64,000 bases of DNA, taken from NCBI RefSeq assembly GCF_032854445.1, contig NC_088301.1, positions 53,927,187 through 53,991,186 of the forward strand, given 5' to 3'. Origin of the DNA: Liolophura sinensis (taxonomy: Eukaryota > Mollusca > Polyplacophora > Chitonida > Chitonidae). Of the stretch, positions 20,101-61,331 are shown piece by piece (within the stretch, counting starts at the first letter, position 1; every line of letters begins with the position of its first letter). The position numbers were made by a program, and so were the translations under genes. The notes under the pieces were generated by a model that saw only the letters and a list, made by a program, of their open reading frames with translations, had not been told where the DNA came from and made no database searches.

Positions 20101-22917
20101 CCTTACTAGAGGTGATCTGAGGACATACATCAAAGACACATCAAAGGTTTGTCAAAAATATTGGGTATGGCCTTGAGCAACAATTGAATAAATAAATAAA
20201 TCAAATATTTTGGGCCCAAAAGTTCGAAATTTTCTTGTACTAATAATTCCTTTTTATGCAGTTTACCAGTCGGGACAAAATAATGCTGTAAATATATGAT
20301 AAAACATTGAATAAACAATTCAGTAGATCTACTGTGTGTCATTCAAATATCTTTTATCAGTGTGATACTAAGAGGTATTGCTCTCAGCCTGAAGAATCCC
20401 TGATCCACATCACCAGCTCCAGACTAAAATGTGTTACGCTTCACTTTTCAGAATTTGACCGGTATGGAGCTGTTACAGTTTGCGGAACAGATAGCCGACG
20501 GAATGAACTACTTGTCAGGCCTCCGGTTTGTCCATCGCAACCTTGCAGCAAGAAATTGTCTGTACGTATTTCATATAATTACCTTCTGAATACTTCCCAA
20601 AAAATGTTGTAATTTATTTTGAGACTCATTAAATTTAAATGAAACTACGCTGTTTTTAAAAGGTAAACTACGTTTCGAAAAGGCACTTCATTGACACATT
20701 CAGGTGTAAAATGTTACATTTATGAAGAAAATCATAAAGACTTATGTGTAAGCCTGTAATGTCCAAAACATATATTGGTTTAAACAGTGTTGCCATGGTG
20801 TACTTTCTTCTTCTTGATATCCTAAGAAATCCCAACACTCATGAAGTAATATTTGTTATTAAAGTTTAAAGATAATCTAAAAAAAGTAGTGAATACTTTG
20901 GTTTCACTCTTCGGAATTCTATCACATGTTAACTGCGATGTAGTCATGAATTGTGAAACCAAATGTTCATTCTTTTTTCAGATTAAATGAAAACCTCAAG
21001 GTTGAACTGACAGACTATGGGCTGACAAAAGATTTGTTTGACAAAAACCATGTATGTAATGCTGGAAACTCAACCAAACTTCTTCTGAAGTGGATGGCCC
21101 CTGAAACACTGAAAACCCAAGAATTTAGTCTGAAAACTGATGTGGTGAGTTTCTTGATAAAAGTGATGTGGTATTATCATTTTGATGTCTTTTTTTTCCC
21201 TTTGGTGTGTATATTTTTACTACTATTTCATGTGCACTTAACCCATATTATTCACTTCACTTTTTTTTTTACCTTTCTGGCACATTTGGTGATAAATTGG
21301 CAGTAGTGTAGCAAACCATTGATGTATTACAAGAATATTATCTTCCCAAAAAACGCATAAAAATATGTTCTGGATGTTGTGACATGTCTTGTAATCTTGT
21401 ATACAAGGTGAGTTATTTCCTCATAATGTCTGTATAATGTGATCACATGGTGTCAGTTGACTTTGAACAAAGATTTCATATTCTGTGTGCAGGTGTTTGT
21501 TGAGGTGAACTTCATTCCTTAACTGTGTTGAAATTTCTGGTTTTTGTAGCAACTGATTAAGATTAGCAAGTTTGAAAGATATTTAAATGATTAAATGATT
21601 GTTCGATCAGATTTGTGTTACCGTTGCAGCCAGCTGAAAATAAGAGATGTTCAGATACAGTTACTTTTTTTTCACCTGATTGTTTAAAGTGCTACATTTC
21701 CTGAGTTGTGCTGGTCACTGTCGAATAAGTAAAATATTCTAGAGTATGGCGTAAAATTCCAATTAAAAAATTAAGAAATAAATTATGAAGTTTAGCATAA
21801 GCAAGCCTGTTATGTGCTTTGTGATTGTGTGTGACACTCACTTTCTGTTAAGTTTTCACAAAGATTAACTCAGTCCTTCATTTGAGTAAGAAAAAATTGT
21901 CTAAAATTTGGTGAACTGTTCCTATTGTTAATATGCAATGTACTTCCATTTTCCACACATGCACTAACCTGTGACCCAGTGCAATGCTTTCTACACAACT
22001 AAGGCAAATTTGTTAGAATTCCATAGTGATTGTATTTACTGAAATGAAAACGTGTTCTAAAATGGGTGAAATATCTACATATTTTTGTATGCACCAATTT
22101 GTGCTAATAATTTGCTCATATTTCTTTTTAAAGTGGTCATTTGGTATCGTTCTGTGGGAGTTGATGACAAGGGGGATAACTCCATACCCTGATGTTGAGC
22201 CTGATGACCTTGTCACATACCTAGACGGTGAACACAGGATGAAAAAACCCAAACATTGTCCAGAATTTGTGTAAGTCATCAGAATAACATATCAGAGGCT
22301 CCTGTCTTGCATGTAAATTGATTCTCTGAAAGCCATGAAACCACTTCTCCTTTTAGGTCTCTTAAATTTTGTACACAAGAAATATCATGTAGTGAATATC
22401 ATTTGTAAATACAAATGATGTGCTTGCAGCATCAGTGGTGTCATCCTATGATGTGAAACAGTCTTGTGTGTTTTTGGCTGAAGCAGTGGAATAGTTAAAG
22501 TTGTTTTTGTGTAGTAGGAAACAGTCTTTACATCAAGCCTGCAATTCATTTTTGTAACATGAATATTTCATCTGTTTTGCTCATGATCGTTCATGATAAC
22601 TATTACCATTTCAGTAATGATCACTCCAACACAGTGATAATTATTGTGCTAAATGACCATCAGATGATTTACATACCATACAAATTTTTGCTAAGATTGC
22701 ATCTTTGTTCTCCACTAGGTATAAGATGATGATGAACTGCTGGCAGAAGGTTCCAGATGATAGACCAACGTTCTCAGCAATACATCAAGATCTCAACAAG
22801 TGGATTCAACCGTCTGAGGCAGAAGCAGACAGTGGAAGTAAAAACAATGAAACAAAACCCCTATATAAAAATGTGGAGTGTGCCGGGTCTGCTGAATACT
22901 TGGATGTGATTGGTTGA
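5135..22917 (+). CDS. Plexin-ectodomain, MET-like receptor tyrosine (pseudo)kinase, 5' incomplete
   Basis: Exons: 5135-5323, 5526-5654, 6142-6242, 6522-6660, 7107-7281, 7590-7680, 8106-8217, 8436-8552, 13090-13194, 13819-13918, 14281-14447, 14736-14887, 15498-15603, 15760-15896, 16157-16321, 16792-16888, 17287-17541, 17854-18009, 18233-18509, 19048-19167, 19674-19757, 19962-20146, 20452-20561, 20982-21144, 22134-22270, 22719-22917. All junctions are GT-AG and the phases join without a break, giving about 1255 residues to the stop at 22915. The order is Sema end, three PSI modules with IPT-type segments, a transmembrane helix, a juxtamembrane region, a tyrosine-kinase domain and a short tyrosine-bearing tail. 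The family to which the kinase belongs (MET/RON) binds growth factors at the cell surface. The ectodomain instead follows plexins, which bind semaphorins. The ligand is therefore unknown. The start codon, signal peptide and most of the Sema domain are not in the exons I could find. Confidence 0.9.
8553..13089 (+). other. 4.5-kb receptor intron with no recognised gene
   Basis: Intron between the exon ending at 8552 and that starting at 13090. It contains the 32-bp minisatellite at 9404-9657 and otherwise unique AT-rich DNA. The short reading frames here have no family resemblance. The protein reads straight across, from the ELPNLQ segment to the next exon's TQGLSCRF, as in plexins, so no exon seems to be missing. 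Confidence 0.7.
9404..9657. repeat. 32-bp minisatellite, eight copies
   Basis: Eight head-to-tail copies of a 32-bp unit with core TGTTAGGTCATGATCCAAAA followed by a CTTAGCTGTGAC-like end. Copies carry scattered substitutions; copy 6 has a one-base deletion (GGTCATATCTAAAAC). It lies within a receptor intron and has no relation in sequence to the 35-bp array at 1-2690. Confidence 0.95.
13640..13800 (+). mobile_element. tRNA-like SINE fragment (family C), tentative
   Basis: Contains a pol III B-box-like GGTTCAAATCC at about 13669-13679, followed by sequence like other family C pieces in the window. A-box and ends are not clear. It sits in the intron just before the exon at 13819. Confidence 0.4.
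18233..18509 (+). other. Transmembrane and juxtamembrane exon of the receptor
   Basis: The exon finishes the last ectodomain strand, then encodes a hydrophobic segment of about 23 residues ([18 protein letters not shown] plus LLSICVI) followed by the stop-transfer charges RRHLKH. An acidic and lysine-rich stretch follows ([11 protein letters not shown]). In plexins the next region would be the bipartite RasGAP domain; here the next exons begin a kinase. No RasGAP motif was seen anywhere in the window. Confidence 0.85.
19190..19385 (+). mobile_element. SINE family B, 5'-truncated
   Basis: Starts inside the B-box region (TTGAAGTCCAGCTCATGC) and continues through the family B body (CTTCCTCTCCGGCC, GGTTTTCCTCGGGCTCTGC, CCACCATAATGCTGGC) to the tail TTGAGTACGGCTTAAAACACC and an A-rich (AAAT)n end. 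It lies in the intron between kinase exons 19167 and 19674. Confidence 0.88.
21720..21785 (+). mobile_element. SINE family B tail fragment
   Basis: About 65 bp resembling the family B 3' end (GTCGAATAAGTAAAATATTC, then GAGTATGGCGTAAAA, then an A-rich run). Diverged and truncated; in a receptor intron. Confidence 0.65.
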
Positions 22918-29548: not shown

Positions 29549-32500
29549 TTATCTACATCCGCTCTTCAACTCACCATCAGGCCATAAGCTGTCGACATTC
29601 ATCTCAGTTGGGTTTCTTCCTGCCAGCGAAGTATTCAGCTCCAAAGGTGTATCACAAGGGGCTACTTCCTTAAATGATCTGGGAGAAAATGCAGAGCTAT
29701 GTCCACTTTGATGTCCCACATCTAATGTAAAACTTGACTGATCAACCGCAAAGTTAGGTCTGCGGCTTTTACTGGGTGGTGGGTTGACTTCCAAGGACGG
29801 CGATCCTAAAGAAGCTGCTTTTGCTCTTAATTTGGCAGGCAACTGAATTGGCACAGATGTCCTTTTGCCAACATCAAAGGATGGTAGAGACACATCTGAG
29901 GGAGATCTCTGCCAGTCTCCTGTCACACCTGTTGAAGTGTGAGGAGAGCCAACACCTGATGACCTTTTAGACTTGAATGTCCACTTCGATTTTGAACACT
30001 GCAAAGGTGTTGTGGCATTCCCAAGAGACTGTTCAGAGCTGTCAGATGAATTTGGCAAGGTGGCATAGGTGGGAATGGCTTGTAAAGGAGAGCGCTGTAT
30101 AGCACTGGTACTTGGAGAAGAGTGTCCAGGTACTGCCTTGTTGTTAGACTGTCCACCTGTAACCCTCGATGCTGGTCTGGAGGCTGCATATTGTGGCACA
30201 GGCATTGTGGCATTACGTGGTGAAGGATGCTGATATTGAGGTTGTGCACAAAACTTGTAGCTATCAGAGTTTCCACTTGCAGATGGTGCAGGTCTTACAG
30301 CCGGGCTAGAAGCCAGAGGTGAGGACAGACTATAAGGAGGCGTAGACGGCACAGAAGATGGCTGGTGCTTCAGTTTAGTCATCCTGTTTGGTGATGTCCA
30401 AGTCTTCGACCTATGTGCTGGAGAAAATGGAACTTGATGACAGGTGTGGGCTCTATACTGAGGCATGCCAGGCTTATTAAGATGTCGGCTAGGAGTTAAA
30501 GATGTCGACTGAGGTACTTTAAACACCTGGTCAGTTTTTGAAGGCCGCCAACCAGACTGTGGTACTAATGGACTACCAAGTTTTGTCATGACTTGACCGA
30601 CACCTGGAGAGCTGTGGACATTCTGGAACAAGGTCGGACTCTGAAGGACACTTTGGATGGGAGTTCCTGGCAGTGAGAGAAGCTGACCAGCTTTGGGGGT
30701 GCTGACGCTTTGCAGTTGGGTCAGCTGTGTCTCCACAGCACTGACTACTTGCAGCAGGTTCTCTGTCTCTCCCTGGGTCACCCTTGCTGTTCCATCCCCA
30801 TTTGAGCGATACACACTCACAACATTGCTCGGAGTGATGTTCAGGTAATGAGTGCGCTGAGACGGACTAATTACACCCACCTTAAACAAATGTATTAATT
30901 AGTTATAAACATCAATTTAGATAATTAAAAGTGTAAAGTGTTACACATGCCTTTAGTTTATATTATGTCCACGATCATGGCCAAACACAATACACTGTGA
31001 TTAAACAATCTCTTAAAGACATGCCATAATTTCACATAAAGAATGTAATACACACTATAATATTTGACAGTGTGACAATGGTCTTAGGGTATAAATATGA
31101 CAGAGTGCCTTGAGTAATGTAAGATTAAAAGCAAAGTTGTGTAATTTTAACACCATACTCAAGAAGTTTACAGTTACAAATTCAGGATTTTTTCAAGATG
31201 GCTTCCTCTCTGATCATATGTGGAAATGTTTTGCAGCAACCTGCGGATAGTCATGAGTCTCCCCTGGGCTCAGCCCATTTCCTCCCACCATATTTATTTA
31301 TTTCATTGGTGTTTTACGCCCTACTCAAGAATATTTTATTTATACAACAGTGACCAGCATTATGGTAACACACCCAATGAAATAAATAAATAAATAATAG
31401 ACAATGTAAGGATGGAGGAAACCAGACTGTCCCGAATAAATCACAAAGATAGTTACCAAGTTTAGCACAAATACTCAGTTTTCCACACATGCAGCAGTCA
31501 ATCAATACAATTTATTTCTATATCGTATTTTAATGTCATACTCAAGAAGTTTTACGTTACTGAATGCCAGCCACATGTAAGTTATGAATGAATGAAACCA
31601 GTGGGCCATGAGTAACTCACCATTCTACTGTGAGTTACTCACCAACCTTTGCCAGCAACTCACCAACCCATGGTTAGTTACTCCCCAACCCATACTCCTT
31701 ACAGCACATGTGCTGCTCTCTACACTCAGTTTACATCATTGGCACCAATAGCATTCAGCATAACATTGTTTCAGGTGTGGTTAGAGTTATGTTGTGCACA
31801 CTGTAGATAAAGAGAATGTAAGGAGAGTGTCCGTAACATTTGCCGGCAAATCACCAACCTATGGTGAGATAGTTACTCACCAACCTTTGCAAGTTACTCA
31901 GCAGCCTGTAAATTACAGGAATGAATGAATGAATGATTATGGCTTTATGCCACATTGTGAATATATCAGCCATATCAGGGCGAGTGAGTTACTGGAAAAC
32001 TCAATATTATGACACAAAAGTATATCACACTCGTGGAAGGAAATCAGTCTCCAGCAAGCTTCTTGTAAGATCACACGAGAACCAATTGAATCACATTAAT
32101 GTGATTAAAGATTCCAAAACCAGTGGAATCAGGAGAGCCTAGAATTGTGCGGAACCCAGAGTTCATCATCCGGCTATCCTTACAAGATTTAGTTGGGAAA
32201 TTTTTTCTTTCATACTGGAGAATAAAAAAGATTGGTTCATAATCAGGCAATCCTTATAAAATCCATTGAACCGTACCCCAACCAGGTCATAAAAAATAGG
32301 GCAGATCAGCCAGGACTTTTTTTCTTTCATGCAGCTCAAAATTTTGACTACTGACTTACCTGTTTGAGGACAAGAACAACACCCTGCTGAAACTGTAACT
32401 CAGACTCTTTCAACAGCTCTCGATGGGCCGTGCCTTGCATTTTGCCTGAAAAAGTAAAACAAAATATCACCATAAAAGGCAACTACTGCTTAGGACATTC

Positions 32501-35500
32501 CATCAGTACTATCTATATTATATATCTATTCTTCGCTATGTTAGCTCACCTGGGTAGGTAAGGTTGTAGATAGAGGTATGGGGATGTAATTACATACACA
32601 AAAGGTTATAACAACATTTACCTGTCTTATCTCGAAGAACGACAAAGCCATCTGTACCCTGAATATCCAGAGTTTCAACAACGACAAACAGAAGGGGCAC
32701 CTTGCCATTAGGGAGGTGCTTCAGCCTTGCCTGAGAAAGATAAATACATACAGATTGACTTCACTGAATAATAAGCTGCTGCTCCAATTACGTACTTTCA
32801 TATATGTATTTTCTTCACACTATGCTGTTGCTTAAACATAGTGTACAACTTCTAATGTTTCAGCCCAGCTGGACACTATTTTTTACGTTATTACACAATA
32901 TGGTTACTGTATGGGATTAAAATACATTGTATACAGTATTTATATAAAGAAAACATTAATGTTCTAATTTTTTCAGTTTATTTCACAGTGAAATGCAGTT
33001 TTCATGGTCCTTAAGATTACCACAAACAATTAAAATCAGACTAATGTGTGCAGGAAACCTACATAATAATCTATGAAGAAATTGTATACATTGCAAAATA
33101 CTTAAAAAACTGGCTTTAGAAAAAAAAACATAGAATGAGGCATTGAAGTGTTAACTTCTTTGGTCTAGTAAATGATCTTAGACTCAAGTGAACAGACTAT
33201 AAAAGAGTTATAAAAGCTGAACAACAGAACAACCTAATTACATGTATCACAGGTAACCTCCACTTTCTACATCTCTAACTTCACAAATTCTGAATCATAA
33301 TATTACACAGAAAACAATAATGATTATCTTAAGCCATATTTTACACTCTTAAGGCACTTAATTTCTTGCATACCTTGCTGACAGTGTCTGCAATAGAGAA
33401 CTTCTTCAGAATAAGCTGGCCATCTTCACCCAAATCATGCTGTAACATCTTCCAAGGAGCTTCAAGAAAGACGTCTTCGGCACTGGACTGTGAGGGGGCA
33501 ATAGGTATATCCTAGCAGGGACATTAAACAGAAGTAAGTAAACAGGATATTTCATGAAATCAGAAAACAATTTGTCCGTTTACAGTTTGTGGAGAAATGT
33601 TCATGTCAAATTACACGCGCACAACTTCTCGTGAATTTTACTGTGTGCATATACCACATTTAATAAAATAACAATGTAGTACATTATATGTTATATTTTT
33701 TTTTCATAAATTAAAAGTAAGACTCTTGCCATGCATATTACAACAGTGGTTAGAAAAGCAATGCAAATGTACAAAGCTGTGTGTAAAGTATGTTATCAAC
33801 CTAAGGTACAGAACCCAAATGAGTCCAAAACATCAAACCTACTTAAATCACAGCTTAATTTACACAAGGATACATTTTGCAACATTAAACGGACCTGTCA
33901 TTAATCATGATGGAATGAACTGACCTGTTTTTTTGGAGATTTTGGAACATTAAGCACAAGCACTGGAGCAGATTGAAGATCTTGACCTGGAACCTGATTT
34001 TTATGGCAAACAAAAATATAGACAAATTATTGTTGGCAAGCTTTGAAATACGAATCAGACCCTCCCTGGATACGATATATAAACATCAAAACTTCAGATA
34101 AAGTAATGTGTGTTTTGTAACCCAATGATACATATCATATACTCATAGCCAACAACTAACATACAAGTAACTTTGTCCTTCAATAAGCCAAAATTCAAAT
34201 TTCAGGAGTCTTACTGCTAATATACATGAACATGATTTTACGATTGTCTGTAGACTGAAAATGTGTGCTGCATTATCTCGCCTGTGTGAACTCCTGAAAT
34301 GTTGATTCGGCTTATTTCCATAACTTTAATTTCAAATTTTCCAGATGTACATCCTATTTTTATCAAAATTTCAAGATGATCCTATATGCAAGTCTCAATA
34401 ATAACTTACAAGTCTAGGCAAAAGTCCAGCAGGCCCTGGAAACTTCCTCTTCATTTTTGACTTCCCATCTGATAAATCTGCTCTGTTTGCATCTACATGT
34501 ACTTCCTCAATATGGCCGAAACTTTTCCTCTCAGGCTGACCCATCATAGCATGTCCCTCTTGTGGCAATGTTGATACATCCAGAAAATGGCATGTGGCAG
34601 CCTGATCTCTCGGATGACAGGTGTCAATTCTATTGGTATGCACTGATTTGTTCCCATAGTATGGTGAATCAGACCCGAGTCTATTAAAAGTTTGCAACAC
34701 ACTCACACTATTAGCACGTCTTCCAAAACTGCCCTTGTTTTGAATACCAGCTTCAGGGCTCATCTGGTTTCCAGATGCCACAGAGGTATTCCGCACGATC
34801 ATTTGTTCTTCAGGCTCTTTAGATCCAGTTTCGGACTGAAAGGTAAGACTAAGTTCCAAATCAAATTCACTACTCTGAGTCAAATTAAATATATCATGCA
34901 GGGTCTCTGCACCAGCATCTGGCTTCTGCATGTCATGAGTTGCTAGATTTTCACTTGGCACAGGTTTACCCTGCATTTCTGTTTCATCTGTTCTCTGGAG
35001 TTCTTGGTTATTACCCTGAAATAAAATAACAGGGCTCCCTCTGCCTGAATCAAGAGATGCAGGAAAATTTGCATCTTTTCTAGGCTGCTGTTCAACAACA
35101 CCTGACTTGTTACTTTCCACCTGAGCTTGTGAGATAGTATTAAATTGTGGAAGGCTATCCCCAAGTGGTAAGTTCTGAAAAATAAAGATGATAGAGGATG
35201 GCTAGTAAATTGGTAGTAAAGTAAGTGGGAAAGCCATACTCTGAAACCATACATGTACCACTTGAACAAAGTTTTGGGCTATAACACAAAGGAAATTTTT
35301 TACATGCAATAAATTATTCTAACTGTAATTCTGACATATTAATTTGTGGAGGTTTCTCTACCTAAATTTCTCAAATGCATTGCCTGAATCAGAATTACCA
35401 CTTTACAAACCACTCTGCAAATGCAAGGCTGTTTAGAAGACAAAATTGATACCTCTGTTGGTTGCCCAGTAGCCCCGTATAGGTATTACACTCCTCTCTT

Positions 35501-36687: not shown

Positions 36688-39600
36688 ATGTTAAGATTAC
36701 CTGCATTATTGACTTCAGTATTTCCTCCAGACTCAAAGTCCTTATTTGTTCATGCACCATTGATAAGAAGATGTCTTAGAAGAGGTTATGCATTCAATTT
36801 GTCGTTACATATGTGTAATGGACACGGTACAAATTACGTAACAAGACGTACGACAAGCTGCTCATTCAAAAGGGAATCCTGGAGTTATCCCCATTCCATT
36901 TGTCTGCATAGAAGTGGGGTGCACTTGAGTAAGGTTTCTTGTATTTATTTTAACCAGAATTCTGCTGTGCAGAATCAAGAGAATAATTTAATGCATATTT
37001 TTTGTAATGGATCAGTGATTAAGCAGCGTGTGTATGTTCCACATCATCAAGACTGTAGACATTTCTCTGTGCTAGAGAGAATCACATCAAGTCAACCTTT
37101 ATGTGGAGCAATGAGGAACAGTAATGAACACAAGGAAAGAACACATGTTCCAGTACAGACAAATTCATCAAGGCAGCTGAGTTTTTCTGCAAAAAGTGTT
37201 GTAGATGCATCGCCTCTGTCTTTCCAGCCTTATCTGCGATTGACACGAGTGGATAAACCAATAGGTAATATATGTATACAGAGCTTCTGTTCTTATCAGC
37301 TGGGAAGGTCAGCAAGTTTTAACTGTGCTATCTCATTTTATCAGTCTGTGCATCTGTCTCTGTAATTTATCTGCCCTTCAGCTTCACTGAATGTTTAAAG
37401 TTGCTTAGCTGATCAGTGTTTTACCCCATACTTCAACACATTCAACTTGTTTGACTGAGTGGTTGAAGGAAACCAACCACTGCACCTTGCCATGTACCTG
37501 ACACGGCTGTGAGAGAGTAACAGTAAGGACTCCTAAGTCCTAATAATGAGGCACACGAGGTGTGTTCAATCCTGGCCTTGGGCACGGAATTTGTGGATTC
37601 CAATGAGCAATGGAGAGCATTTGTGGGGCTGTTGGCACACAGTTTTGATTTATTAATGACCATTTGTCTTCCACCAGAAATGGAGTGCAAGTCTGTAAAG
37701 TAGGAAAGGTTGTAACGTTCACAGCAGTAGTAATTTCCCAAAGGTTAGTGGATAAACTGGATAGCTGTTTCCCATGTATCTGATCGAGATTTCATGGCTG
37801 CAGGACAAACAAATCCATGTGATTAAAGTATTTGTAAATAAAGTATTTGTGAACCTCAGCATTTAAACATACAGTAGTTCAGCAAAATCTGTGTATTTTA
37901 TTCCACTCATGACATCTTAAACTTTACTTGGGTTTTAGGACAGTTTCAAGTTGAAAATTTAGAAAAATATATTTTAATAAATTGGATTGGAGTTGAACTG
38001 TTGGCTATCGCCAAAGACTGTAGTGTACATTAGGCATAAATGATCATGTGTGTTTGTTTATCTTACCAATGACACGTTACGCACATGCATACTGAGGCAC
38101 CACTTCAAACAGCTGGTCACAGTTGGTAGAGCGTCCGCTTCGGGACCGGTAGATCCAGGATCAATCCTTGGTCGAGTCACACCTAAGACTTTAAAAGAGG
38201 AAGTTGTAACTTCCTCGCTTGGCGTTCAGCATGAAGGGGATAGTTATTACCCTGGTAACTCGGATTTCTAACATGCATGAAACTGACCTCCACCATTAAA
38301 GTAAAAAATTCTTCATTTACATGACGTTAAAAAGCAGTCAAAATTAGATGAATTAAAGCCACAGCTAAAGAAAACTTGTGGCCTTGTGAACCATAGGCTT
38401 TTCCTAGTCCTACAGTATACAGTATGGGGGTTATAGCGATCAGGATGTCTGCAGGTTTGCCTGTAATCATTTCTTTTTAACAAATCTGCTCTTAATGTTT
38501 TTATCATATTGTCGTGAAACTTGATCTGCATTATGAGGATGATATATGCATGTGCTGTTGTGGTTTTGTTACATCAGTTATTTACATTTATCACTCTTCC
38601 AGGATATTCTAGATTCAAAGCGAGAAGGTGCTTATGAACAAAACACTTGTTCAGCTTATGGCCCATTTGCTTCCATTTAAATATTTTGCATACATGGAAG
38701 ACTCAAGGGAACACAGAATAGGCTTCTGTATTTTAATGTCAAATACATGTACATGTAATAGTAATAGTTTGCAGTCAAGCAACGTTGTGGGTTTAGTTTA
38801 ACAGTTACTCTATTGCATGGTTGCAGGCACATGGCTGCTGTTCTGGCCGTGTACCTGGAGCATCTGCCTGGCTGGTGAGGCTGGGCATTTACCTGACTTT
38901 AGAATGATTGCTCTGTTTGGCATGGGGGCTTTTCTCATGAGAGGAGCAGGATGTATCATCAATGACATGTGGGACAAAGACTTTGACAGAAAGGTAAAGC
39001 CTTAATAGTTCTAAGAATTGGTGATTGGTGTTTTACGCCGTACTCCTGAATATGTCACTTATATGACAGCAGCGGGCATTATGGTGGGAGGAAACCAGGG
39101 CATGTGCACTGTACCTTTTAAACCTGGAATGCAATATGCATGATGAATAATTTAAACCAACCAAGCTAGAGCGTGTAATTTTGAAAAATGCATGTGATTG
39201 GTTCTCGTAGGGGCATACTATATCTGTTATTTGCTCTTTTGCCGTCTCAGGTTGAAAGAACCAAGCTACGACCCCTGGCAAGTGGAGAACTGAACACATT
39301 CCAGGCCCTGTGTTTCCTGGGCCTAAATTTATCTCTTGCGTTAGGTGTCCTACTTCAGCTTAACTGGTACAGGTTAGTTGCCAATTACATCTAGCAATCT
39401 AGCATATGATATGAAAAGTGTTTTTCTTTGACTTTTAGATAATGTAAGTGTAACATACTCTAAGTGTAATATATTCGAGTGACTTGTACAGTATATATTT
39501 TTACTTGTACACTGTATGAGTAATCACTTTTATTATTGAATGTGATTAAAATATTAATATAAATAGCTGGAGTTAAAAATAATTTGATTACTTTTGGGTA

Positions 39601-42600
39601 CATTCAAGCTTTTGACGATAAGGTGTGCATTAGAATTCTTCCTTTATTGTAGTGTGATGCTAGGAGCTTCATCAATGTTGCTGGTTGTTACTTATCCCTT
39701 GATGAAGAGATACACCTACTGGCCCCAAGCCTTTCTAGGTATTGTGTGACACTGATTCATCTTTTGGTAAAGGACAAAACAGTTCTGGATATACAGTATA
39801 CATGTATGAGTGGAACTGATGAGAGATGATTAATATATGTGTGAGTTGATCATTGATCCTAAACTGTAGATTTTCAGCTTCATTAAATTTGAACCCTTTA
39901 TGTTAATATTCAAGGATTATCCTGTCAGAGGAGCCTGTTCTAACCAAATATTTAAGATGCTTGCCTTTGAGTTGCTTGGTCACACTATGTGTGAGTTCAA
40001 ACCTAGCCTTGGGGTGGAAAATGTAAAATTTAGTGTCTTGGGTCTTAATGGCAATTAGTGGTCAGTGGCACTCGTGTGGCTCTTTGCGATGTTTAATAAT
40101 TGTTAGAGACCACTTGTCCGCCTATATGGCGTGTATATCTGAACGTCACTGGTTGGAATATTTGGTGGTAAAATGTCAAAGGTTAGTGGTTTGCCAGTTC
40201 TCTCTGCCATCGTATATGTACATGTACAGTATAATTGAAAGATTATATAGTATTATGTTAAACAATAATGAAATAAGCAAATCAAATGTAAAGCAGAAGT
40301 AAATTTCTTAACAAATGGCGTAGTATGTTACATTTTCACTTGTGATTCTCAGTATTGTGACTCTCACAGCACTGATGTGCATAACCTCCTACCATGTGTT
40401 GGCTGAGTATTGTGTGCTTAGGAATACGAATTTAGTTTTTATTGTGCTTTAGATATAAAGTTACATTTCATGTAATAAATCCTGCTCCCCATATTTGCCA
40501 CAGGGAGAAAACAAATGTATACAAGCTTGTAACCAGCCACTTTGTACTCAGTTGTCATATGATTAGGAATGGTCTTGATGGTGACTTTAGGCTAGATTTG
40601 TAGTTACGGATGTGTTCTATGTTCTGTAGTTTGTTAAGTATGGCGCTGTCACCTATATGCAGCAGCCACTGCTCACAGTAATGTTACAGGATTGCTCAAT
40701 AATGGCACATGCATGTACAGGATATATGTATGGTTTTAAGGTTAAGACATCGGAGCGTAATCCCTTTGTGTGTAATATCACAGTTTTATGATCCAGTAGT
40801 GCTACTTACCTGTGTTATTCAATACTAGTTTGTATATTTTACAAAAATTTCTTCCAGAATTTGAATACTTCTGCTCTTAAAAATCAAATGTCACTGGAGA
40901 ACATACATGTAATCAGATCTAATTGTTGTAGATAGTTGCTATTATTGGATATAGAGGCTTTCATGTACCTGTAGATGAAATTTCATAGTTTTTACCGTAT
41001 GTTGCAGATAAACATGCTTCAAAGGGAAGTTATTCTGTTGATGTGAATTCAAAACCTTATTACCTGAAGAAGACAAAGGTTACTAAATGCCTTAAATAGT
41101 TGGTGAAGGTATTTCAAGGCAGAACATTGTCGTCATATGACTGAAAAATTGTTAAGTACAATGTAAAACCCCAAGCATTCATTCATACCTTCATTTAAGG
41201 CAGAACAAGTTTCCTCCATTAATTCAGTGTGGCCAGGCTAGAGTAGAAAGTGTGTACTCTGAAATATGTTTTCCAGGCCTAACTCTGAACTGGGTGTTCT
41301 CTTGGCTTGGAGCCACCTGCAGGGAAGTTTGGAGTGGGGGAGTTGCCCCCCCTTTATATGGCTACCGTTCTTTATACCATGACCTACGACAGCATTTACT
41401 CACACCAGGTAGTAAAAATGGAAAGCACTTCTATCTATACATGTAGTTTTTGTGATGGGAACACTGCAGCAGACAAATATAAACTACAAGAGGCTGTCAG
41501 GCCAGGGAAAGAAATTAAGTATAGAAAGAAATTATTTTTACAACACCTTAAAATTTGAGCTGTTATTCACAGTATGGCTGTGCCTCTTCTAGCTTTATGT
41601 TTTTTTTCTGCAGTACAATGTCCTGGTATATGTGATCCCTAATACAAGTTTTTTGTTTTCACACAGGTGGTATATTGGCTTAACAAGGGAGTGTCTTTTG
41701 CTATGTAGAAAAAAAAAACACCAAAACTCTTTTTCTCATTTTATGTGTTACTGTAGGATTAACATTCAACTACGGGGCCATACTAGGTTGGTCAGCTGTA
41801 CAAGGTTCGTGTGATTGGCCCATAGTTATTCCCCTTTACACAAGTGGCTTCGCATGGACATTGTTGTATGACACCATCTATGCTCACCAAGTGAGTATAA
41901 GAGGAAAGGCCCCTGGGTGATAGTGTGCTGGGTGGTAGTATAGACTCATGGTAGCGTTACCTGACTGTTCCCTTGTCATTTCCCATTCCCCATGTCAACC
42001 TGGAATGAGAAACTACTATTAGAATTACTAAATAGGGTATTGGCTTTGGCAGAGTATTAATATGTCTGTATGTTAATTCTTTGATCTTGCATCAATGTTT
42101 TTCTACCTAGTGAACTCACATCATTGTAATTGCAAAAGCCAAAATTATTCTGAAAAGTTCAGCCGAGAAGGAGAATAAATCTGGTCTCAAATTTAATTGA
42201 TACCTAGATGTGGCAAGGTATAGAAGAAAAAACACATTAAAAAATGGGTGCTTAAAGAGGCTAAAAAAAATCAAGCGATGCAAATCCTGTTGATTTTTTT
42301 TTTGCTATTATTTAAGAAATAATACTACGAAAATGGTCGAGGGTTATAAAATGTAGAGTAACCCAAATAATTACCATTCACTGAATATGAGCCTCATCTG
42401 TGCACGTTACCTTTCAAAATACATGTAGGTAATAAAGATACTAAATTTGTAAAGCAGGTTGCATTATAACTTTATCAATTGTAGAATGATTTTAACACTA
42501 TAAACAGTACAGGTGCAAATCTGATACTTTAAGATGTGTGAGGTGTTCTTGACAAATACAAAAAAATTGATTTAACTTTACTGTTTTGTTGCAATATTGA

Positions 42601-45467
42601 AGGTAGAAAACATGGATGGAAGACTTGGATATAAATGTATTCTTACTGCATGTACTTTGACCAACTTGTTAAAGTTGGAGAAAGCCTTGAAATTACAAAG
42701 ATGCTGCATCACTAATAAGTGTGGGTTTATACCAAACATTGTAACTCCTGTTAAGAGTATAAATGAAATCGTGGACATCAGCACCATCAAGTCGTTCAAT
42801 TGGCAATTGAGTTACATGTATTTAATGCACTGTTATTGTAGTAGAGTGTGTGTTAGATTAGAGTATTAGATTATGTACCTTATTTAAAAGCCCACCTCAT
42901 AAGTATTTGATTGACTCTGACAGCACCTGGCAAGTACTATTACACAAGTAGACCAGTCACCTGCCTCCGGAAGATATACTTGGTGTAAACACTTTATATT
43001 GCCTACCAGAAATTTCACAGGATGCTTTTGAGTTTGGATAGTTTGAATGTCACTAGTCTTGATGGATACCATAGATTTCTGTAGAATTAAGCAGTCATGC
43101 AATCATGGTGGAGTTTTTAAATTAGTCTTTGGGATGCCCATGAAGTATATATGCTCATAGTGCAAAATGGTGTGTGTGTACATTATGTACAAGGTGCATA
43201 CAAAGAGGGGTCATCAATATGTGTAGGTATAAAACAAAAATTTATCTAAACAAATTTTCAACAAGATGGAAGGCTGGATGGAAACTTTATGGATCATTTC
43301 TCTGATTGGTCAGCATTGGTCTTTCTTTTTTTTCTTTTTTTAAGCGTTGGTCATTTGTTTATGTTTCACGTACATATCTTAAGCTAAATTCTTACCTTAG
43401 AATTTTAGAAATTTGGATGTGATCATCACATGTGTTGTATTATGACAAAATTGTTACATCATGTATCCTTGTGATCCTTGATTTGCTGGGTCGCAAATTT
43501 TTCATAACCAAGTTATAACCATTAACATGATTTCATTTTGCTAAATATAGTCGGCAACTAGAGTTTTATTTTTTAAGATTGAGATTCAGCTTCATAAAAG
43601 AAACATGTTGCTTCGTAGCATGCATGCATGTTTTGTGGGATGGGTGCCTTTTTAGGGAGAAGGAAGAGGGTCATATGAATAAGATGCCTTGGGCATTTGA
43701 CCTTTGTCCTGCATGTCGAGGTCACATTTTACCTGGCACTATCCCAGGTCAGTCCTCATACTTCTCCTTATTGCTTGCTACCATGATCTAAATCCACCTT
43801 GCACACTCATGTGTACAGAGTTTGAATCAGTCTTGTTTGTCTTTTGCTTCAGGCTAATTCTATGGAATTATTTCTTCAGTATTTGGAATGTTGTACATTT
43901 TCGGTTTCTTTCTCTTTCTCTCTTGTTTATTTTTTTTTTTATGTTTCTTTCTTTTTTATTGTGGCGAACATCTATTTCACAAGCTGTCTTACAATTTGTT
44001 GTATTTAATATAACTTCTTTTGCTAGCATATGTATTCAAAAAATATGTACTAAAACACACAAGTGGGCTTTGTCTTGATTACTACTCAACTCTGCTGCAG
44101 GTCATGCAAGATAAGAGAGGTTTTGTATTTTTCTCATACATAAACCATGTTAACTGCAGCCAATTTCTGGGTTCAATCAGTCATTTTGTCTTTGCGCACA
44201 ATTTGTACTGAAACTTGTACTTTAATTGATTCTGCTGTATATATGCCAAAGTGTTCTGTAGATGAAACATGTGTACAGGTAAAACTTTTATTTCAGAAGT
44301 ATTGCTACCTTTAAATGTTTCGAAAAATCTTAACAAAAAGGTTTGTATGAAAAACTTTATTTTTATATGAAGCATGCATGCTAGAGAAATTGTGGATGGT
44401 TTATTCTGAATCACCTGCATAATATATCAACTGACTTGTTACTGCGATTATACCTGCAAATAGTGCCATTTATAAATAAAATCAAATTAATATTGCTTTT
44501 TTTTTCAAGAGAAAGAAAACAAATTCATTTTTTTTGCAGGATAAGTATGATGACATGTTGATTGGGGTCAAATCCACAGCTCTGAAATTTGGAGATCAGA
44601 CCAAACCTTGGCTCTTTGGGTTTGCTGCAGTGATGATGAGCGGCCTCACCTGCACAGGTGTAATGTGTGAGCAGACCTGGCCGTATTACCTAGCAGTTGC
44701 AACAACTGGAACACACCTTGCTTACCAGGTAATCAGTGTTTAAAATATTTGGCTCTCATCAAGATATATGACCCAATTTAAAAGCACAGTTCTATTTAAA
44801 TTTACACCAAAATCTCCAATAACTAGTATTGTGGTTGCACAGTAGGGCCTATATATTGCCCTGGCTGTCTTATCATATATATAAGTTAACTTTACAAACC
44901 TACAGGTAAATTTACTTGTACCACCTGGCATAATACTGTACATACATTACTGCCTTGGTTGCTTTTATAATGTTACCATATGTATGCTTTCTGAAATGAT
45001 CTACTGGTGCATATGAATACCATTTTTCCTGTTGATATTTTTAGTATTTTAATTGTTCATTTTACTACTAATGTATCTGGTAAAACACTAGTAGGGATAA
45101 GGCGAAAAAAAGTTTTTATACCCAGTGAGAGTTACTTTTTTAACTATAATGTTGGCTCTTGGTAGAAATTAAATTTGTTATGTGTTAAAGATACTATATC
45201 TGGGAGTTTTGAATATTGTGAAGTATGATTTGAATGTTTCCATACGTAATTGCAAAGTAACAGGGCTATTCTTGCTGTGAAAAACATTCATGTAATTTCC
45301 CATTTCAGATATATGATGTGGATCTGAACAACCCAGACGACTGTGCTAGGAAGTTTCGCAGCAACAGCTGGCTGGGAATGATCTTGTTCCTGGGAGCAGC
45401 ATTTGGTACCTGGCTAAGACATCCTCACACAAAGGGTGATAGAGCAGTCAAAGGAACTAACAGATGA
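36688..45467 (+). CDS. COQ2: 4-hydroxybenzoate polyprenyltransferase, mitochondrial
   Basis: Exons: 36688-37264, 38827-38993, 39251-39372, 39653-39738, 41757-41890, 44540-44728, 45309-45467; 477 residues, phases consistent. It attaches the polyprenyl tail to the aromatic ring in quinone biosynthesis, in the inner mitochondrial membrane. The first exon encodes about 190 mostly unconserved residues, expected to hold the mitochondrial targeting sequence, then [12 protein letters not shown]. Two Asp-rich sites of the UbiA family are present: NDMWDKDFD (exon 2) and [13 protein letters not shown] (across the junction of exons 5 and 6). Hydrophobic helices follow ([15 protein letters not shown] and others). 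The protein is longer than human COQ2 (about 370-420) because of its N-terminus. A homologous alternative form of exon 5 lies at 41277-41408. A polyadenylation signal AATAAA is at 46031-46036. Confidence 0.95.
37440..37745 (+). mobile_element. SINE-like repeat in COQ2 intron 1, tentative
   Basis: Contains a B-box-like GTGTTCAATCCTGGCCTTGG followed by GGCACGGAATTTGTGGATTC. This pattern (box B, then CCTTGG, then AATTT.T.ATTCC) is shared with 58040-58150, 62235-62300 and 45885-45930, which I group as family C. The boundaries are uncertain. Confidence 0.5.
38100..38262 (+). mobile_element. SINE family A, 5' half
   Basis: tRNA-like head with box A (AGTTGGTAGAGCGTCCGC) and box B-like GGATCAATCC, then CACACCTAAGACTTTAAAAG and GAAGTTGTAACTTCCTCGC, ending near GAAGGGGATAG. 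The 3' half is absent. It lies in COQ2 intron 1. Confidence 0.85.
39020..39098 (-). mobile_element. SINE family B, 3' fragment
   Basis: GATTGGTGTTTTACGCCGTA, ATATGTCACTTATATGACAG and GGCATTATGGTGGGAGGAAA on the plus strand match the reverse complement of the family B 3' half. It lies between COQ2 exons 2 and 3. Confidence 0.85.
39985..40210 (+). mobile_element. SINE family C copy, tentative
   Basis: B-box-like GAGTTCAAACCTAGCCTTGG, then GGTGGAAAATGTAAAATTTA and later GAGACCACTTGTCCGCC. The last block recurs as GAAGACCACTTGCCCCC at about 45937 and GAAGACCACTTGTC at about 62368. It lies in COQ2 intron 4. Confidence 0.55.
41115..41192 (+). mobile_element. SINE family A, 3' end only
   Basis: CGTCATATGACTGAAAAATT, GTTAAGTACAATGTAAAACC and CCAAGCATTCATTCAT match the 3' end of the copy at 3546-3870. 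It ends about 85 bases before the alternative COQ2 exon at 41277. Confidence 0.85.
41277..41408 (+). pseudogene. COQ2: Alternative (rhodoquinone-type?) version of COQ2 exon 5, with two 1-base gaps
   Basis: It is bounded by a good acceptor (ATGTTTTCCAG) and a donor (CACACCAG then GTAGTA) and begins in the same phase as the exon at 41757. Its 132 bases translate to a homologue of that 134-base exon, but only if one base is missing in each of two G runs: GGG at 41292-41294 and GGGGG at 41336-41340. With these allowed for, it aligns over all 45 codons with 22 identities and no gap, for example AWSHLQGS against GWSAVQGS and YDSIYSHQ against YDTIYAHQ. Residue 4 is Leu (41285-41287) where the other exon has Phe, and residue 43 is Ser (41400-41402) where the other has Ala. 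Nematodes switch quinone type with just such a pair of COQ-2 exons. It is typed pseudogene because of the frame breaks, but homopolymer sequencing error is a real alternative. Confidence 0.85.
41891..44539 (+). other. COQ2 intron between exons 5 and 6; no gene recognised
   Basis: 2.6 kb of AT-rich sequence. The short reading frames at 42597, 43704 and elsewhere show no conserved motif. A poly-T tract precedes the acceptor at 44539. Confidence 0.6.
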
Positions 45468-54500: not shown

Positions 54501-54615
54501 TTATTTATTGATTTATTTATTTATTTGATTGGTGATTTGCGCCGTATTCAAGAATATTTCACTCATACGATGGCGGCCAGCATTATGGTGGGGGGAAACT
54601 GGGCAGAGTCCGGGG
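54500..54615 (-). mobile_element. SINE family B, 3' fragment
   Basis: TTTATTTATTTATTTGATTG, GATTTGCGCCGTATTCAAG, GGCGGCCAGCATTATGGTGG and GAGTCCGGGGAAAACCCAC on the plus strand are the reverse complement of family B. Only the 3' half is present. Confidence 0.9.
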
Positions 54616-54952
54616 AAAACCCACATCTTTTAAATATCACAAGATCACATACCTCTATAATAAAACAGGCTTTGAAAGAAATGTATATACCACTTAACCT
54701 ATCTCACAGAGAAGAACGAAATGATCATTTGAAATGGCTCGATATTTCAGTACTTTTTATGGTAATTTCACAGTGAAACTTACAATTATACATAGGTTTA
54801 GAGACATTCCAGTGATATAATATCCTTACATCTAAAACAATATTCTGTAATATTCTCTTCTAGCTGTTATATCATCTTGTGAACGATCAAGTCAAAATGA
54901 GCCTTTTGTTTTTTTGGAGTTTTTACCTGTGTATTACATTAACCAATAGGTT

Positions 54953-55218
54953 ATTTATTTATTTATTTGATTGGTGTTTTACGCTGTACTCAAGAATATT
55001 TCACTTATACGACAGCGGCCAGCATTATGGTGGGTGGAAACCGGGCACAGCCTGGGGGAAACCCACAACCATCCGTAGGTTGCTGACAGACCTTCCCACA
55101 TACGGCCGGAGAGGAAGCCAGCATAAGCTGGACTTGAACTAACATGGACCGCATTGGTGAGAGACTGCTGGGTCATCACGCTGCGCTAGCACGCAAACCA
55201 ACTGAGCCACAGAGGCCC
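54953..55218 (-). mobile_element. SINE family B, full length
   Basis: Best copy of this family in the window. Read from 55218 on the minus strand it starts GGGCCTCTGTGGCTCAGTTG with box A (TGGCTCAGTTGG), then box B-like AGTTCAAGTCC, body CAGCTTATGCTGGCTTCCTC, and ends TTGAGTACAGCGTAAAACACC and an (AAAT)n tail at 54953. The head is clearly tRNA-derived; a true tRNA gene is excluded because the cloverleaf does not close and the body continues. Confidence 0.93.
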
Positions 55219-56110: not shown

Positions 56111-59100
56111 ATGAAGAAGTTGACTGATAACCAAAAGGCTGTTGTGTCTGGAACTAACAGGTAAATGGGAGGACTGTTTATTTACTTACTGTCTGAAGCA
56201 TTGATATGATTTTTGTCCTTTAGGTATAGACTTACAACAACAAACATCTGAGTGAGTGAGTGAGTGCTTGGGGTTTAACGTCGTACTCAACAATTTTTCA
56301 GTCATATGACGACGAAGGAATCATTAGGGTGCATGTACGTGTAATGTGCCTTCTTGTTGCAGGACAGATTTCCACCGCTCTTTTATTTAGTGCTGCTTCA
56401 CTGAGACGACTTACCGAAGGCAAGTAAGCCGCCCCGCCCGAGCCATTATACTGATACGGGTCAACCAGTCGTTGCACTATCTCCTTCATGCTGAACGCCA
56501 AGCGAGGAAGTTACAACTTCCTCTTTTAAAGTCTTAGGTGTGACTCGATCAAGGATTGATCCTGGATCTACCAGTCCCGAAGCGGATGCTCTACAAACTG
56601 TGCTATCCGGGCCGGTACAAACATCTGAACTGGCAGTGTTGACAAGTCTTTCAAATTAGGTTTACTTTTGTTGCCATATTATATATACAAGCATGCATGT
56701 GTATGATATGCCTGTTCTTCAGTAAATAGTGAAAAAAAATGACCTAAATTTATGCAACTGTATGCATTTAATTATTTCTTTGTAATGTGTGTTGTAATGA
56801 CACAAAAAAGAATTTCGTCTTGAATTATATGTTTGGTGTGAACACTAAGTTTTTCTGATAAGAAATTAACCAAACTTCACAGACAAATCTTAATTGACCT
56901 GGCTATAGGGTGGATAAATAAGTTAGAATCATGACAAAATGTTTCCCTTGAAAAAGTCTGAACTTTAGGTGAAATATAGTAGGCTACAAATGACATTTTT
57001 TTTTACATCTGTTGTAGAAAGGCATTGTTGCTGTCTATATGTGTTGGGGCCTTCGCACTGATTGTATATCTGATTCCATCACCTATTGACCCTAAACCTT
57101 TCAGGTAGGTAGAATGTTGCAGGTTTAGTTTGGATAGGAAATTATAAGTACATTTGCTGGATTTATATCTGTAATGTATATTTAGAATCCGGTTAGAAGC
57201 TGTAATATGTCTGAAATGAGAGACTAAGGTTCATCTTAACATAAACTTTTTTCTGTATGGTTTGTTACTTTTTTAAAAATTTTATTCATCCAGATTTGAC
57301 AAGCCACCACCAAAATTAGAAGGCCCTTTAGCTCCAAATTTTAACCTCCAGAAGGCAAGAAAACTCTTTGAGGGTAAAGTTGCTGGCCCAGAATCATTTG
57401 CAGTCGACAAAAATGGTAGGTGCACTTGATTGAAATGTGTGGGACAGTTTTACTGACACATTGAAGACAAAGTAAAGGCCAGAGTACATTTCAACCACAT
57501 ATAGGATTTTGTTTATTTAATTAATCCCCTACCAGTACCTGAATGTTTTAGTCAATTTTTTTTTTCAGAATGATGTTTTATTCTGATGTGATGTGTTACA
57601 TGGGTAGTGGCCATGTCTTGCAAAAGCAATGCATTCAGGACGCTAGTTTTTTTTTTTGAATATGATTTATGAAGAAACAAGTCATTTTCTGTTGTATGTC
57701 TGGTATGTATTACAGAATTTTCTTTCATTATTGTATAATCGTATTTATGACGGTAATCTTCATCTTCATCATGTGTATGTATTTGTGCATTGTAGGTAAA
57801 ATTTACACTGGTGGTTCTGATGGCAAGATTTGGGGATTCCAAAGTGGACAAATCCAGCTTGTGGCTATTACTGGCAAAAATCATTCAAATTGTGGTAAGT
57901 CTTTCATTGCTATACTTATGTTTTATCTTGTTGGGAAGTGTCTAAAGCAAAAACTGTCATCATATAAGTGAAATATTCTTGAGTACTTTGTAAAACACCA
58001 ATCAAATAAATAAGTAAATAAATAAAGTGAAGTGTCATGTAGCCTGTGAGTAAGGTGCATGGCTCTCATGATGAGAGATACAGTGTGTTGGTTCAGTCCC
58101 AGCCTTGGATGGGGAATTTATAAATTCCACCACTCTCACTGTTAGTATCGTGAATCATGATGAATATTTGAATTTTGCACTGGGATCCTATTTTTATTTG
58201 TAGGTAGTTTTGAGCTTGAGCCAGTTTGTGGCCGTCCTAAAGGGATGAAGGTGGACAAGGGAGGTAACCTAATTGTAGCAGATGCTTATCTGGGATTACT
58301 GAAGGTCTCTTTACCAGCAGGAAATATTCAGGTCTTGATACCAAACAACAAAGGTATGTAGGACAGATTTGTATTTACATTCTTCCACTTTTCCAAGGCT
58401 AATTACTTTTGCTTATTATGGAAAAGACCGACTGGAATGTAGTTGGTAGCTATAGAATTTTCGATTGATCTTAAAGCATTTCATTGTTTGGTCAAATTTA
58501 GAAATCAGTTTTGAAATTTACATTTAGGTTAAAGCAGTAACGCTTACTATGTGTTTTAAACTCCTCTGCCACCATATCCAAAGGCCAGCCTGAGTTATAT
58601 TATTGAAGCAACTAAGTGTAAAAATATGGATATTCAGTGTTAACCAAATGTCTTTAAATTTAGGCTTTTTATTTTATTTTATTTTTTTGTATTTTTGACT
58701 TTTACATTTTTGTTTCGTTATTTTAGGATTGGGTGGAGTGCCATTTAAGTTTCTGAATGGACTTGACATGTCAGAAGATGATGTTGTGTATTTCACAGAT
58801 TCCTCCACTAAATGGGACAGAAGGCACCATAAATATGAGGTCTGTGTATTTGTAATGTCACTGAGTAGTTTCCTTTAATTTGCCAATGATGGTGTGGTTT
58901 ATTTATTTTTTTTTTTGCACTACAAATGTATTCACAGAACAGTCGATGTAGGTTACCTACACACATTAATCAGCAGTCATATGCAAATTATTTTGTAAAT
59001 GTGTTGTAGAAGAAAGTAAGTTAGATTCATTTGTTTTACAGGTGATTGAGACAAATAATTATGGGAGGCTGTTTGAGTATGATCTAAAGACTGGACGCAG

Positions 59101-61331
59101 TAAAGTGCTGCTTTCAGAGCTGTACTTGGCCAGTGGAGTGGCCTTATCATCAGATGAGAGCTACCTCCTGGTGTCAGAAATGAGTGTGTGCCGTATACAA
59201 AAGTAAGTTTGTAAATTTTATAATATGTGCTGTAAGATAAAGTATGAGTTATAAGTACATACCTCATTATAGCGTTCATGTAGCTAATCTTCCATTTAAA
59301 CCTTCATATAGTCACTATATATCGACTTTCTGAGCTCTGATGAGTGTGTAATTGCATGTGTGTAAAGTAAAGTAAAACTGCCAGAATTTCTTGTTTCTCT
59401 CAGTCATTTCTGGTGTATGCTCAATCTGCCATTATTATGGTGTAATTGATTAAATTTTTTTAAATTATTGCTTAAATGATTTTCTAGTTCTGAGATATGT
59501 GGATTGCTTATTTAAATACTTTTAGATATTACCTGAAGGGCCCAAAGGTAGGGAAATCAGAGTTACTTCTGGATAATCTACCTGGTTACCCAGATAACAT
59601 CAGACTTAACAGCCGTGGTAACTTTTATGTTGGTTTGGCCTCTGTGAGATATGAAGGGTCAGGTGTGACAAAACCTTTCCTAGACGTCGTCGCACCATTT
59701 CCAGCAGTGAAACGGTTTGTTGCAAAGGTGAATGTCAGCAGTCATATTATTTATATTTTTAGTATAATATTATGTTAGTTTTTATATTTTATATATATAA
59801 TATTACTTTAGTATTACAATGAATGATCCTACTTTATTATTAAGATATAAGTGAAATTTGTGCACTCTGCATAAATTATATAGTGGCAATAGTAATGATT
59901 ACTCAGGAAAAAGGGAGAAAAAACATTTTAAAAAAAATGAAAAGGAATGTCTGGGATGTGACCCCCACACTGCCAGGTATCAGATACAGTGGGCCTAGTA
60001 CTATAATCCAACATAGAGATTAAGTGCCTTTGATCTTCTGCTCATAGCCAAGAATAAAAGACAAAAAGAATACATTTGTTGCAAACTTGATGCCTATTCC
60101 CACAGTAAACTGCTGTGACAAGTTTCATGCAGTCTTGAATCAATTTTGGAGAAAACCAGAATGATTTCTGAAAAGTGTTTTGACGATGATGTGAAAACCA
60201 CAACTTGAATGGGAATAATCCTATGAAATTAAATGTTCAATCCAATTGTGTAGTTTTCACAGGTGACCTACTTTAGCTCTATTTTCATCGGCTAGCTCAA
60301 GCCTAATTTACTCACAGAAATGTCTCATATTAAGAAGTTTTAATTGCCAAATCATTTCAATTTCGGCTGTTGAGCTGAATGCCAGTCATCCATTCAATTG
60401 CTAGGAGAGACAAGGTACGAGTTGAAGAAGAAAACATAAAAATGATACTAAAATCAGATGACAACTTAATTGCAGATTTTCGATTTTTGGTTTTAGAAGG
60501 AAAGGGTGTTTGGAAATATTTTTGTATTTTTGGTATTTGGGACCACCTCTTGGTATTTTGCATAATGCTGTTCTAAATAAGGCATGTGCTGCTTGTCAAA
60601 TATATTTATTTGAATGTAAATTTGTTGTTTATATCCAAACATATGTATTTAGTCTGAATTATGATAATGTTTATGAATATATTAAAAACATAAAAATATG
60701 ATCAGAATCTGGGTGGAACACATTTGTCAGCCGAAAAGATCAAATTCTAGTGGTAATATGTTTATTAAATGTGTGTTACATCCTCATTCATAACATTATT
60801 ATGCAAAGACAGTATATTCCTAGAAGTGATCCCAAATACACAAACATTATTTTTAGGTGTCTTTATCTCTTTAAGAAAAATCGAGAAGAAAAAAATATTT
60901 AAGACCACTTTTCACACTCTTTTATCTGAACTTCATGTAATTTTTACATTTTCTCCACCCTTAATCCCCAGTTTTGGACTGATGATTCATGGTATCAGAT
61001 GGGTTATGGTTGTTTTATAATCCATGGTACATGTACATCCATGTTTGTAAGATTATGGTTGTTGTGGTTAACACTTGCTAACAGGTGCAACTGATTTGTG
61101 TGTTTTTGCTAATTTTTTCAGGTTTTGCCATTTTGGGTGTACAGTATATTTCTTCCAAAGCACTCTATGTTGTTGGAGATCACAGGAGATGGGGCTATTC
61201 TGGGAAGTCATCATGATCCAACGGCTGATGTATTGTCTGGAATCAGTGAGGGTTTCCAATATTTGGATAAGGTGTACATTGGACATTTTGCTTCAACATT
61301 TATTGGAGAAATTTCTGTAAATGATCTCTGA
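56111..61331 (+). CDS. APMAP: Adipocyte plasma membrane-associated protein (strictosidine synthase-like)
   Basis: Exons: 56111-56160, 57018-57104, 57294-57415, 57796-57894, 58204-58353, 58727-58839, 59042-59202, 59526-59727, 61122-61331; 397 residues (human about 416), all GT-AG and in phase. The leader exon starts at 56025 after TTTTTCAG. A short basic cytoplasmic N-terminus (MKKLTDNQKAVVSGTNRK) is followed by one membrane anchor (ALLLSICVGAFALIVYLI), making a type II membrane protein. The rest is a six-bladed beta-propeller of the strictosidine synthase/gluconolactonase type: GPESFAV, GKIYTGGSDGKIW, CGRPKGMKVD, NLIVADAYLGLLKV, VYFTDSSTKWDRRHHKYE, GRLFEYDLKTG, LPGYPDNIRLNSRGNFYVGL, and a C-terminal YLDKVYIGHF. 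Vertebrate APMAP has arylesterase-like activity and sits in the plasma membrane and ER; its physiological substrate is unsettled. A polyadenylation signal AATAAA is at 62157-62162. Confidence 0.96.
56251..56618 (-). mobile_element. SINE family A, full length
   Basis: Read from 56618 on the minus strand, it starts CCGGCCCGGATAGCACAGTT, with box A-like TAGCACAGTTTG and GAGCATCCGCTTCGGGAC, then GATCCAGGATCAATCC, and ends at TTGAGTACGACGTTAAACCC and CACTCACTCACT. It also contains an insertion (ATTACACGTACATGCACCC) near its 3' end that the 3546 copy lacks. It lies in APMAP intron 1. Confidence 0.92.
57965..58150 (+). mobile_element. SINE family B tail followed by a family C copy
   Basis: 57965-58028 is a family B 3' end (GTGAAATATTCTTGAGTACT, CACCAATCAAATAAATAAGT). 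Directly after it, 58030-58150 has a tRNA-like head (TAGCCTGTGAGTAAGGTGC, box B-like TTGGTTCAGTCCCAGCC) and the family C body TTGGATGGGGAATTTATAAA. In an APMAP intron. Confidence 0.7.
59728..61121 (+). other. Last APMAP intron, nothing recognised
   Basis: 1.4 kb of AT-rich sequence. No exon of the family is missing between the exons joined here, since the propeller reads straight on from AVKRFVAK to VLPFWVYS. Confidence 0.7.

Follow-up and report, generated by a model that had tools for sequence, protein, structure and literature searches.

Tandem a- and e-type alternative exons of COQ2 in the chiton Liolophura sinensis, with the e-type exon out of frame as assembled

In Caenorhabditis elegans, the coq-2 gene carries two homologous alternative exons, 6a and 6e, both of 134 nt and both expressed, and parasitic nematodes and flatworms have counterparts of this pair (PMC7434440). 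All e exons examined by Tan et al. (2020) replace Phe204 with Leu and Ala243 with Ser, two positions that lie 39 residues apart (PMC7434440). The switch between ubiquinone, the electron carrier of life with oxygen, and rhodoquinone, its counterpart for life without it, has already been described for molluscs, annelids and helminths; the species listed in the available text of the same paper include the oyster Crassostrea virginica, the snail Biomphalaria glabrata and the annelid Capitella teleta, and no chiton is named there (PMC7434440). An a/e switch is not new to molluscs, and its kind is known. In the COQ2 genes of Alvinella and the siboglinids, adjacent a and e exons are told apart by the first signature site, which is the most diagnostic in annelids, and the second site (A/S) shows no clear pattern; the siboglinids keep the e exon even though several of their kynurenine-pathway genes were not found (PMC12403961). 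Within open-licence PMC we found no paper on rhodoquinone in chitons, and none of the matches listed in the wider lophotrochozoan and mollusc literature concerned a chiton COQ2 e exon.

The assembly studied here was published under the name Liolophura japonica, with 609,495,693 bases in 632 scaffolds (PMC11068029), and the species name was later corrected to L. sinensis (PMC12441733). The genome that we searched comprises 609,464,459 bases in 632 contigs, and the window, the whole 64-kb stretch of DNA that was analyzed, is G000:C7:53927187-53991186. A partial genome duplication has been reported in L. japonica (PMC12005716). The animal is abundant on intertidal rocky reefs (PMC11068029) and is most likely a rocky-shore chiton, not a mud dweller of the sort mentioned in the initial annotation of this locus. 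The COQ2 gene lies on the + strand of the window and has seven exons per transcript, one of which is either of two alternatives. Its features, in window coordinates, are as follows (slashes mark exon boundaries).

36688–37264, + strand: COQ2 exon 1, with a long N-terminal region; open frame, donor ATAG/gtaata, the ATG being our choice
38827–38993, + strand: COQ2 exon 2, with the first Asp-rich motif, NDMWDKDFD
39251–39372, + strand: COQ2 exon 3, read on the sequence
39653–39738, + strand: COQ2 exon 4, ending in phase 1 (G/)
41277–41408, + strand: e-type alternative exon, 132 nt as assembled, with two single-base frame breaks; Leu4 and Ser43
41292–41294, + strand: GGG run in the e exon, best-fitting site of the first missing base
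41336–41352, + strand: GGGGG-AGTTG-CCCCCCC tract in the e exon, site of the second missing base
41757–41890, + strand: a-type alternative exon, 134 nt, intact; Phe4 and Ala43
44540–44728, + strand: exon following the alternative pair, with the second Asp-rich motif, DKYDD, at its start
45309–45467, + strand: last exon, including the stop codon

The a-form coding sequence runs for 1434 nt through seven exons without a frame break, and all six of its introns start with GT and end with AG. Its protein matches TIGR01474 (4-hydroxybenzoate polyprenyltransferase) with 375.1 bits against a cut-off of 275.45 bits, over residues 180–458 and profile positions 2–280 of 282. This near full-length UbiA/COQ2 match, together with both Asp-rich motifs, identifies the gene as COQ2, as had been proposed from the sequence at the outset. 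A UbiA profile search and a search with the a-exon peptide indicate that COQ2 is present once in the genome; the peptide gave one genome match, in a search that missed the e exon itself, so diverged or broken copies would escape it. Two neighboring UbiA-family genes, each covering most of the family profile in one open frame, lie on contig C9 (G000:C9:26630201-26635668), and UbiA-matching exons on contig C1 are, by their motifs, presumably COX10-like.

Several other features share the window. A receptor tyrosine kinase gene at 14220–22917 (+), which we take to be MET/RON-like by its layout, has a PSI exon and five kinase exons and probably starts near 5135. Its catalytic loop reads HRN instead of HRD and its DFG site DYG, and VAVK is kept; because of the first two changes, the predicted kinase may be weak or dead. 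A 449-codon open frame at 29552–30898 (−) resembles HROB (homologous recombination OB-fold protein) weakly, its 27.9 bits falling short of the 30.8-bit cut-off, and a 268-codon frame at 34398–35201 (−) gave no Pfam match. At 58970–59203 (+) lies an exon of the strictosidine synthase family (PF03088, 55.5 bits), presumably APMAP-type. Tandem repeat arrays occupy 185–2633 and 9402–9660; the first repeats a 35-bp unit 61 times and has a 111-bp register within it, and the second repeats a 32-bp unit ∼8 times. A dispersed repeat, which we assume to be SINE-like, occurs at 19291–19357, 39031–39095 and 54535–55041, and its words TTTTACGCCGTACTC and ATTATGGTGGGAGGAAAC have 11 matches against 0.59 expected and 6 matches against 0.03 expected, respectively.

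The two alternative exons of COQ2 lie 348 bp apart, both come after G/ and thus enter in the same phase, and each has its own splice sites, with acceptors ttttccag (upstream) and ttactgtag (downstream) and donors CAG/gtagta (upstream) and CAA/gtgagt (downstream). In these coordinates and sites, the initial annotation was accurate. The exons are homologous, stand in tandem and code for the same protein segment in the same phase, which is the arrangement of an a/e switch and the architecture reported for the oyster and the snail, members of the same phylum, and for Capitella (PMC7434440). The adjacent a and e exons of Alvinella and the siboglinids are laid out likewise (PMC12403961). The chiton a exon has the 134 nt of its C. 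elegans counterpart, whereas the chiton e exon, a predicted one, has 132 nt as assembled. No frame break is mentioned for the oyster, snail and Capitella pairs in the available text of Tan et al. (PMC7434440), which sets the chiton e exon apart from them. Inverted repeats that might pair the introns and so enforce exclusive use were sought, and only short or imperfect ones were found.

With its own exon masked, the 45-residue downstream peptide scored 121 at the upstream exon in a frameshift-tolerant alignment. Its best scores elsewhere in the window were 46 (+) and 54 (−), a score of 71 ending at 41335 being a portion of the upstream-exon match, and the top score in 40 Markov-resampled windows, both strands included, was 63. 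Chance resemblance was rejected on this comparison. The alignment over 45 codons with 22 identities that had first been described stands once one base is supplied at each of two places; as assembled, the upstream exon has 132 nt and its frame is broken. The 22 identities consist of 21 among 44 readable codons plus Gly7, and another choice of run lengths gives 23. Between the a and e exons, bases differ at 19 of the 43 first codon positions compared, at 17 of the 45 second and at 31 of the 44 third. If the differences were placed at random, 9.7 ± 2.1 of the 44 readable residues would be identical, against the 21 observed, a number reached in none of 5000 simulations. Third positions near saturation together with a conserved peptide mean that the duplication goes far back and that the pair spent a long time under coding constraint. 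The upstream exon is thus not a recent copy, and the homology of the two exons is well supported.

At residue 4, the upstream (e) exon has Leu and the downstream (a) exon has Phe; at residue 43 they have Ser and Ala, respectively. These residues, 39 apart, are as first read, and the changes F204L and A243S named in the initial annotation agree with the published ones, so that chiton and C. elegans share Phe to Leu and Ala to Ser at the same spacing (PMC7434440). It is through this spacing, not through alignment with C. elegans, that residue 4 is equated with site 204 in C. elegans numbering. Among bacterial UbiA proteins (the best 80 of 174 relatives), 79 have F at site 4 and one has I; at site 43, 65 have G and the other 15 have A. 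On the sequences compared, Leu at site 4 is the more telling change because Phe is so nearly constant there in bacteria. Site 43, Ser in the upstream and Ala in the downstream chiton exon, is not to be leaned on, since the corresponding annelid site has no clear pattern (PMC12403961) and the remote archaeal structure 4od4 has Ser at the aligned residue. A test of whether the e exon retains the residues at bacterially conserved sites gave P = 0.17, which is not significant; a column that is a gap in every bacterial sequence was left out.

As assembled, the e exon cannot be read in frame with its flanking exons. It needs two separate one-base additions to match the a exon, and a transcript with the e exon only would end HLLTPG and then meet a stop where the exons join, short of the second Asp-rich motif. 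The frame is also lost if both alternative exons are skipped. Inclusion of both, in contrast to either of these, leaves the frame open to the normal stop with 44 residues added, because 132 is divisible by three. One G added at 41292–41294 restores Gly7, a residue present in 22 of 22 bacterial representatives; this first gap sits in an ordinary GGG run, one of 519 G/C runs of three in the window. No G/C run in the 64 kb is longer than the C7 run at the second gap, and only one other is as long. Here seven combinations of G- and C-run lengths give near-equal peptide scores, from 128 to 135, so the original codons 22–26 are not recoverable. A hairpin was considered as the cause of the second gap, and the case for it is weak: DNA folding of the G5/C7 tract gave a z score of −0.70, and 51 of 200 shuffles fold as well. 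Once its frame is corrected, the e exon is free of stops, and its splice sites and the two signature residues are preserved. Simulated neutral substitutions left the frame without a stop in 78% of cases for 4 substitutions and 43% for 16, so the open corrected frame argues only mildly against decay.

Our search for a second or repaired copy of the e exon returned one full genome match, the locus itself (40 of 102 candidates were scored), and 45 other matches that covered only the first 49 bases of the query. Window positions 41150–41198, ∼80 bases upstream of the e exon, match at least 45 other places in the genome.

G/C runs are a common site of residual HiFi indels. The chiton assembly was made from PacBio HiFi reads with hifiasm at 14x coverage, and GenomeScope put the rate of read errors at 0.74% and heterozygosity at ∼1.24% (PMC11068029). 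Other open coding sequence in this assembly, ∼14 kb in our sample, showed no frame break, the a exon 348 bp away included. The sample comprised the seven a-form COQ2 exons (1434 nt), the HROB-like frame (1347 nt), 238 codons of kinase match and eight haemocyanin exons with 3674 codons of open frame, flanks included; as all of these are recognizable genes, it is biased towards intact ones. The haemocyanin exons correspond to eight molluscan haemocyanin matches (PF14830) in a row on contig C8, as fits a mollusc. Matches to COQ2, kynureninase and alternative oxidase were read for internal stops, and all the stops lay in intron sequence beyond the splice sites; this reading left out one alternative-oxidase-like match on contig C6 and three tryptophan dioxygenase matches, one of them with a stop. 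Were two errors to fall at random over ∼14 kb, it would be very unlikely for both to land inside these 132 bases, but G/C runs attract errors.

Genes of the surrounding pathway were also found. Kynureninase exons lie on contig C3 and tryptophan dioxygenase exons on C8; taken one exon at a time, the kynureninase matches do not reach the family cut-off, which is normal for a split gene. Contig C1 apparently carries two genes for alternative oxidase, oppositely oriented and separated by a few kilobases (G000:C1:77838041-77846142). The presence of these predicted genes for kynureninase, tryptophan dioxygenase and alternative oxidase would be consistent with synthesis of rhodoquinone and does not demonstrate it.

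How, then, is the broken e exon to be read? We give slightly better than an even chance to the view that the exon pair is real and so is the loss of the e exon, whether as a decaying exon or as a null allele. The main competitor, a serious one to which we assign somewhat over a third of our belief, is that the e exon is intact and functional in the living chiton, that the missing bases are homopolymer assembly errors, and that the a and e exons are spliced exclusively as in other molluscs. Both gaps do fall at G/C runs, one of them in the G5-N5-C7 tract, HiFi coverage was just 14x (PMC11068029), and a single added G restores Gly7; moreover, the frame is otherwise open, the signature residues and splice sites are kept, and exons of kynureninase, tryptophan dioxygenase and alternative oxidase are in the genome. 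Against these points stand the unbroken frames of the ∼14-kb sample, a exon included, and the first gap's position in a GGG run of a kind found 519 times in the window. On balance we lean towards a real lesion, slightly ahead of a misassembled intact exon, and the matter is not settled.

Three further explanations carry far less weight. The 132-nt exon might have been put to a new use, either as a poison exon that lowers COQ2 output or as a 44-codon cassette, and the transcript with both exons is indeed open to the normal stop; most of the added peptide, however, would not be read in the conserved frame, and it would break up the core of the enzyme, and we consider such a use quite improbable. 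Equally hard to credit, and if anything harder, is an origin of the upstream exon by lineage-specific duplication of the a exon, with Leu and Ser acquired independently and no role in rhodoquinone synthesis at any time. Tan et al. left independent origins in helminths, annelids and molluscs open (PMC7434440), but the conserved peptide with 31 of 44 third positions changed points to a long coding history, and the a-exon length and the two-residue change are the same as those published. That an intron came to resemble the exon by chance has nothing beyond the frame breaks in its favor, and the score of 121 against a best of 63 in resampled windows leaves it a probability close to nil.

The preferred reading, a real pair with a real lesion, suggests the following course. 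The pair would be the ancient set of alternative COQ2 exons that also occurs in nematodes, flatworms, annelids and other molluscs; its downstream a-type exon is intact and fits the ordinary ubiquinone enzyme. Judging from published C. elegans work, use of an e-type exon would exchange two helices in the core of the enzyme and favor the rhodoquinone precursor. By arithmetic, two 134-nt exons between these flanks would require that exactly one be included to keep the frame. In the assembled haplotype, the e exon lacks two single bases, such that a transcript with the e exon alone would stop at the junction, and this transcript should be degraded or inactive. The initial annotation had proposed the upstream exon as an e-type exon of a ubiquinone/rhodoquinone switch. 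The published architecture and both signature residues bear out the type, and the two frame-breaking losses with the immediate stop speak against a working e exon. A functional switch in this chiton is not supported, because the e exon, in its assembled form, breaks the frame. That the switch is being lost, with an intertidal chiton giving up an inherited e exon by frame decay, perhaps as a segregating null allele, and only the ubiquinone enzyme left, is a tentative proposal whose chances we place a little short of even.

Should the frame breaks be an assembly artefact, the e isoform would be absent from gene models built on this assembly. A genuinely broken exon would make the chiton a natural test of how an intertidal animal manages without it. 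Chitons belong to the Aculifera, the other main branch of the molluscs, and an e-type exon there would put the a/e pair in the molluscan common ancestor. Whether rhodoquinone synthesis in animals is ancestral with losses or arose repeatedly was left open by Tan et al. (PMC7434440), and a pair in the molluscan ancestor would bear on that question.
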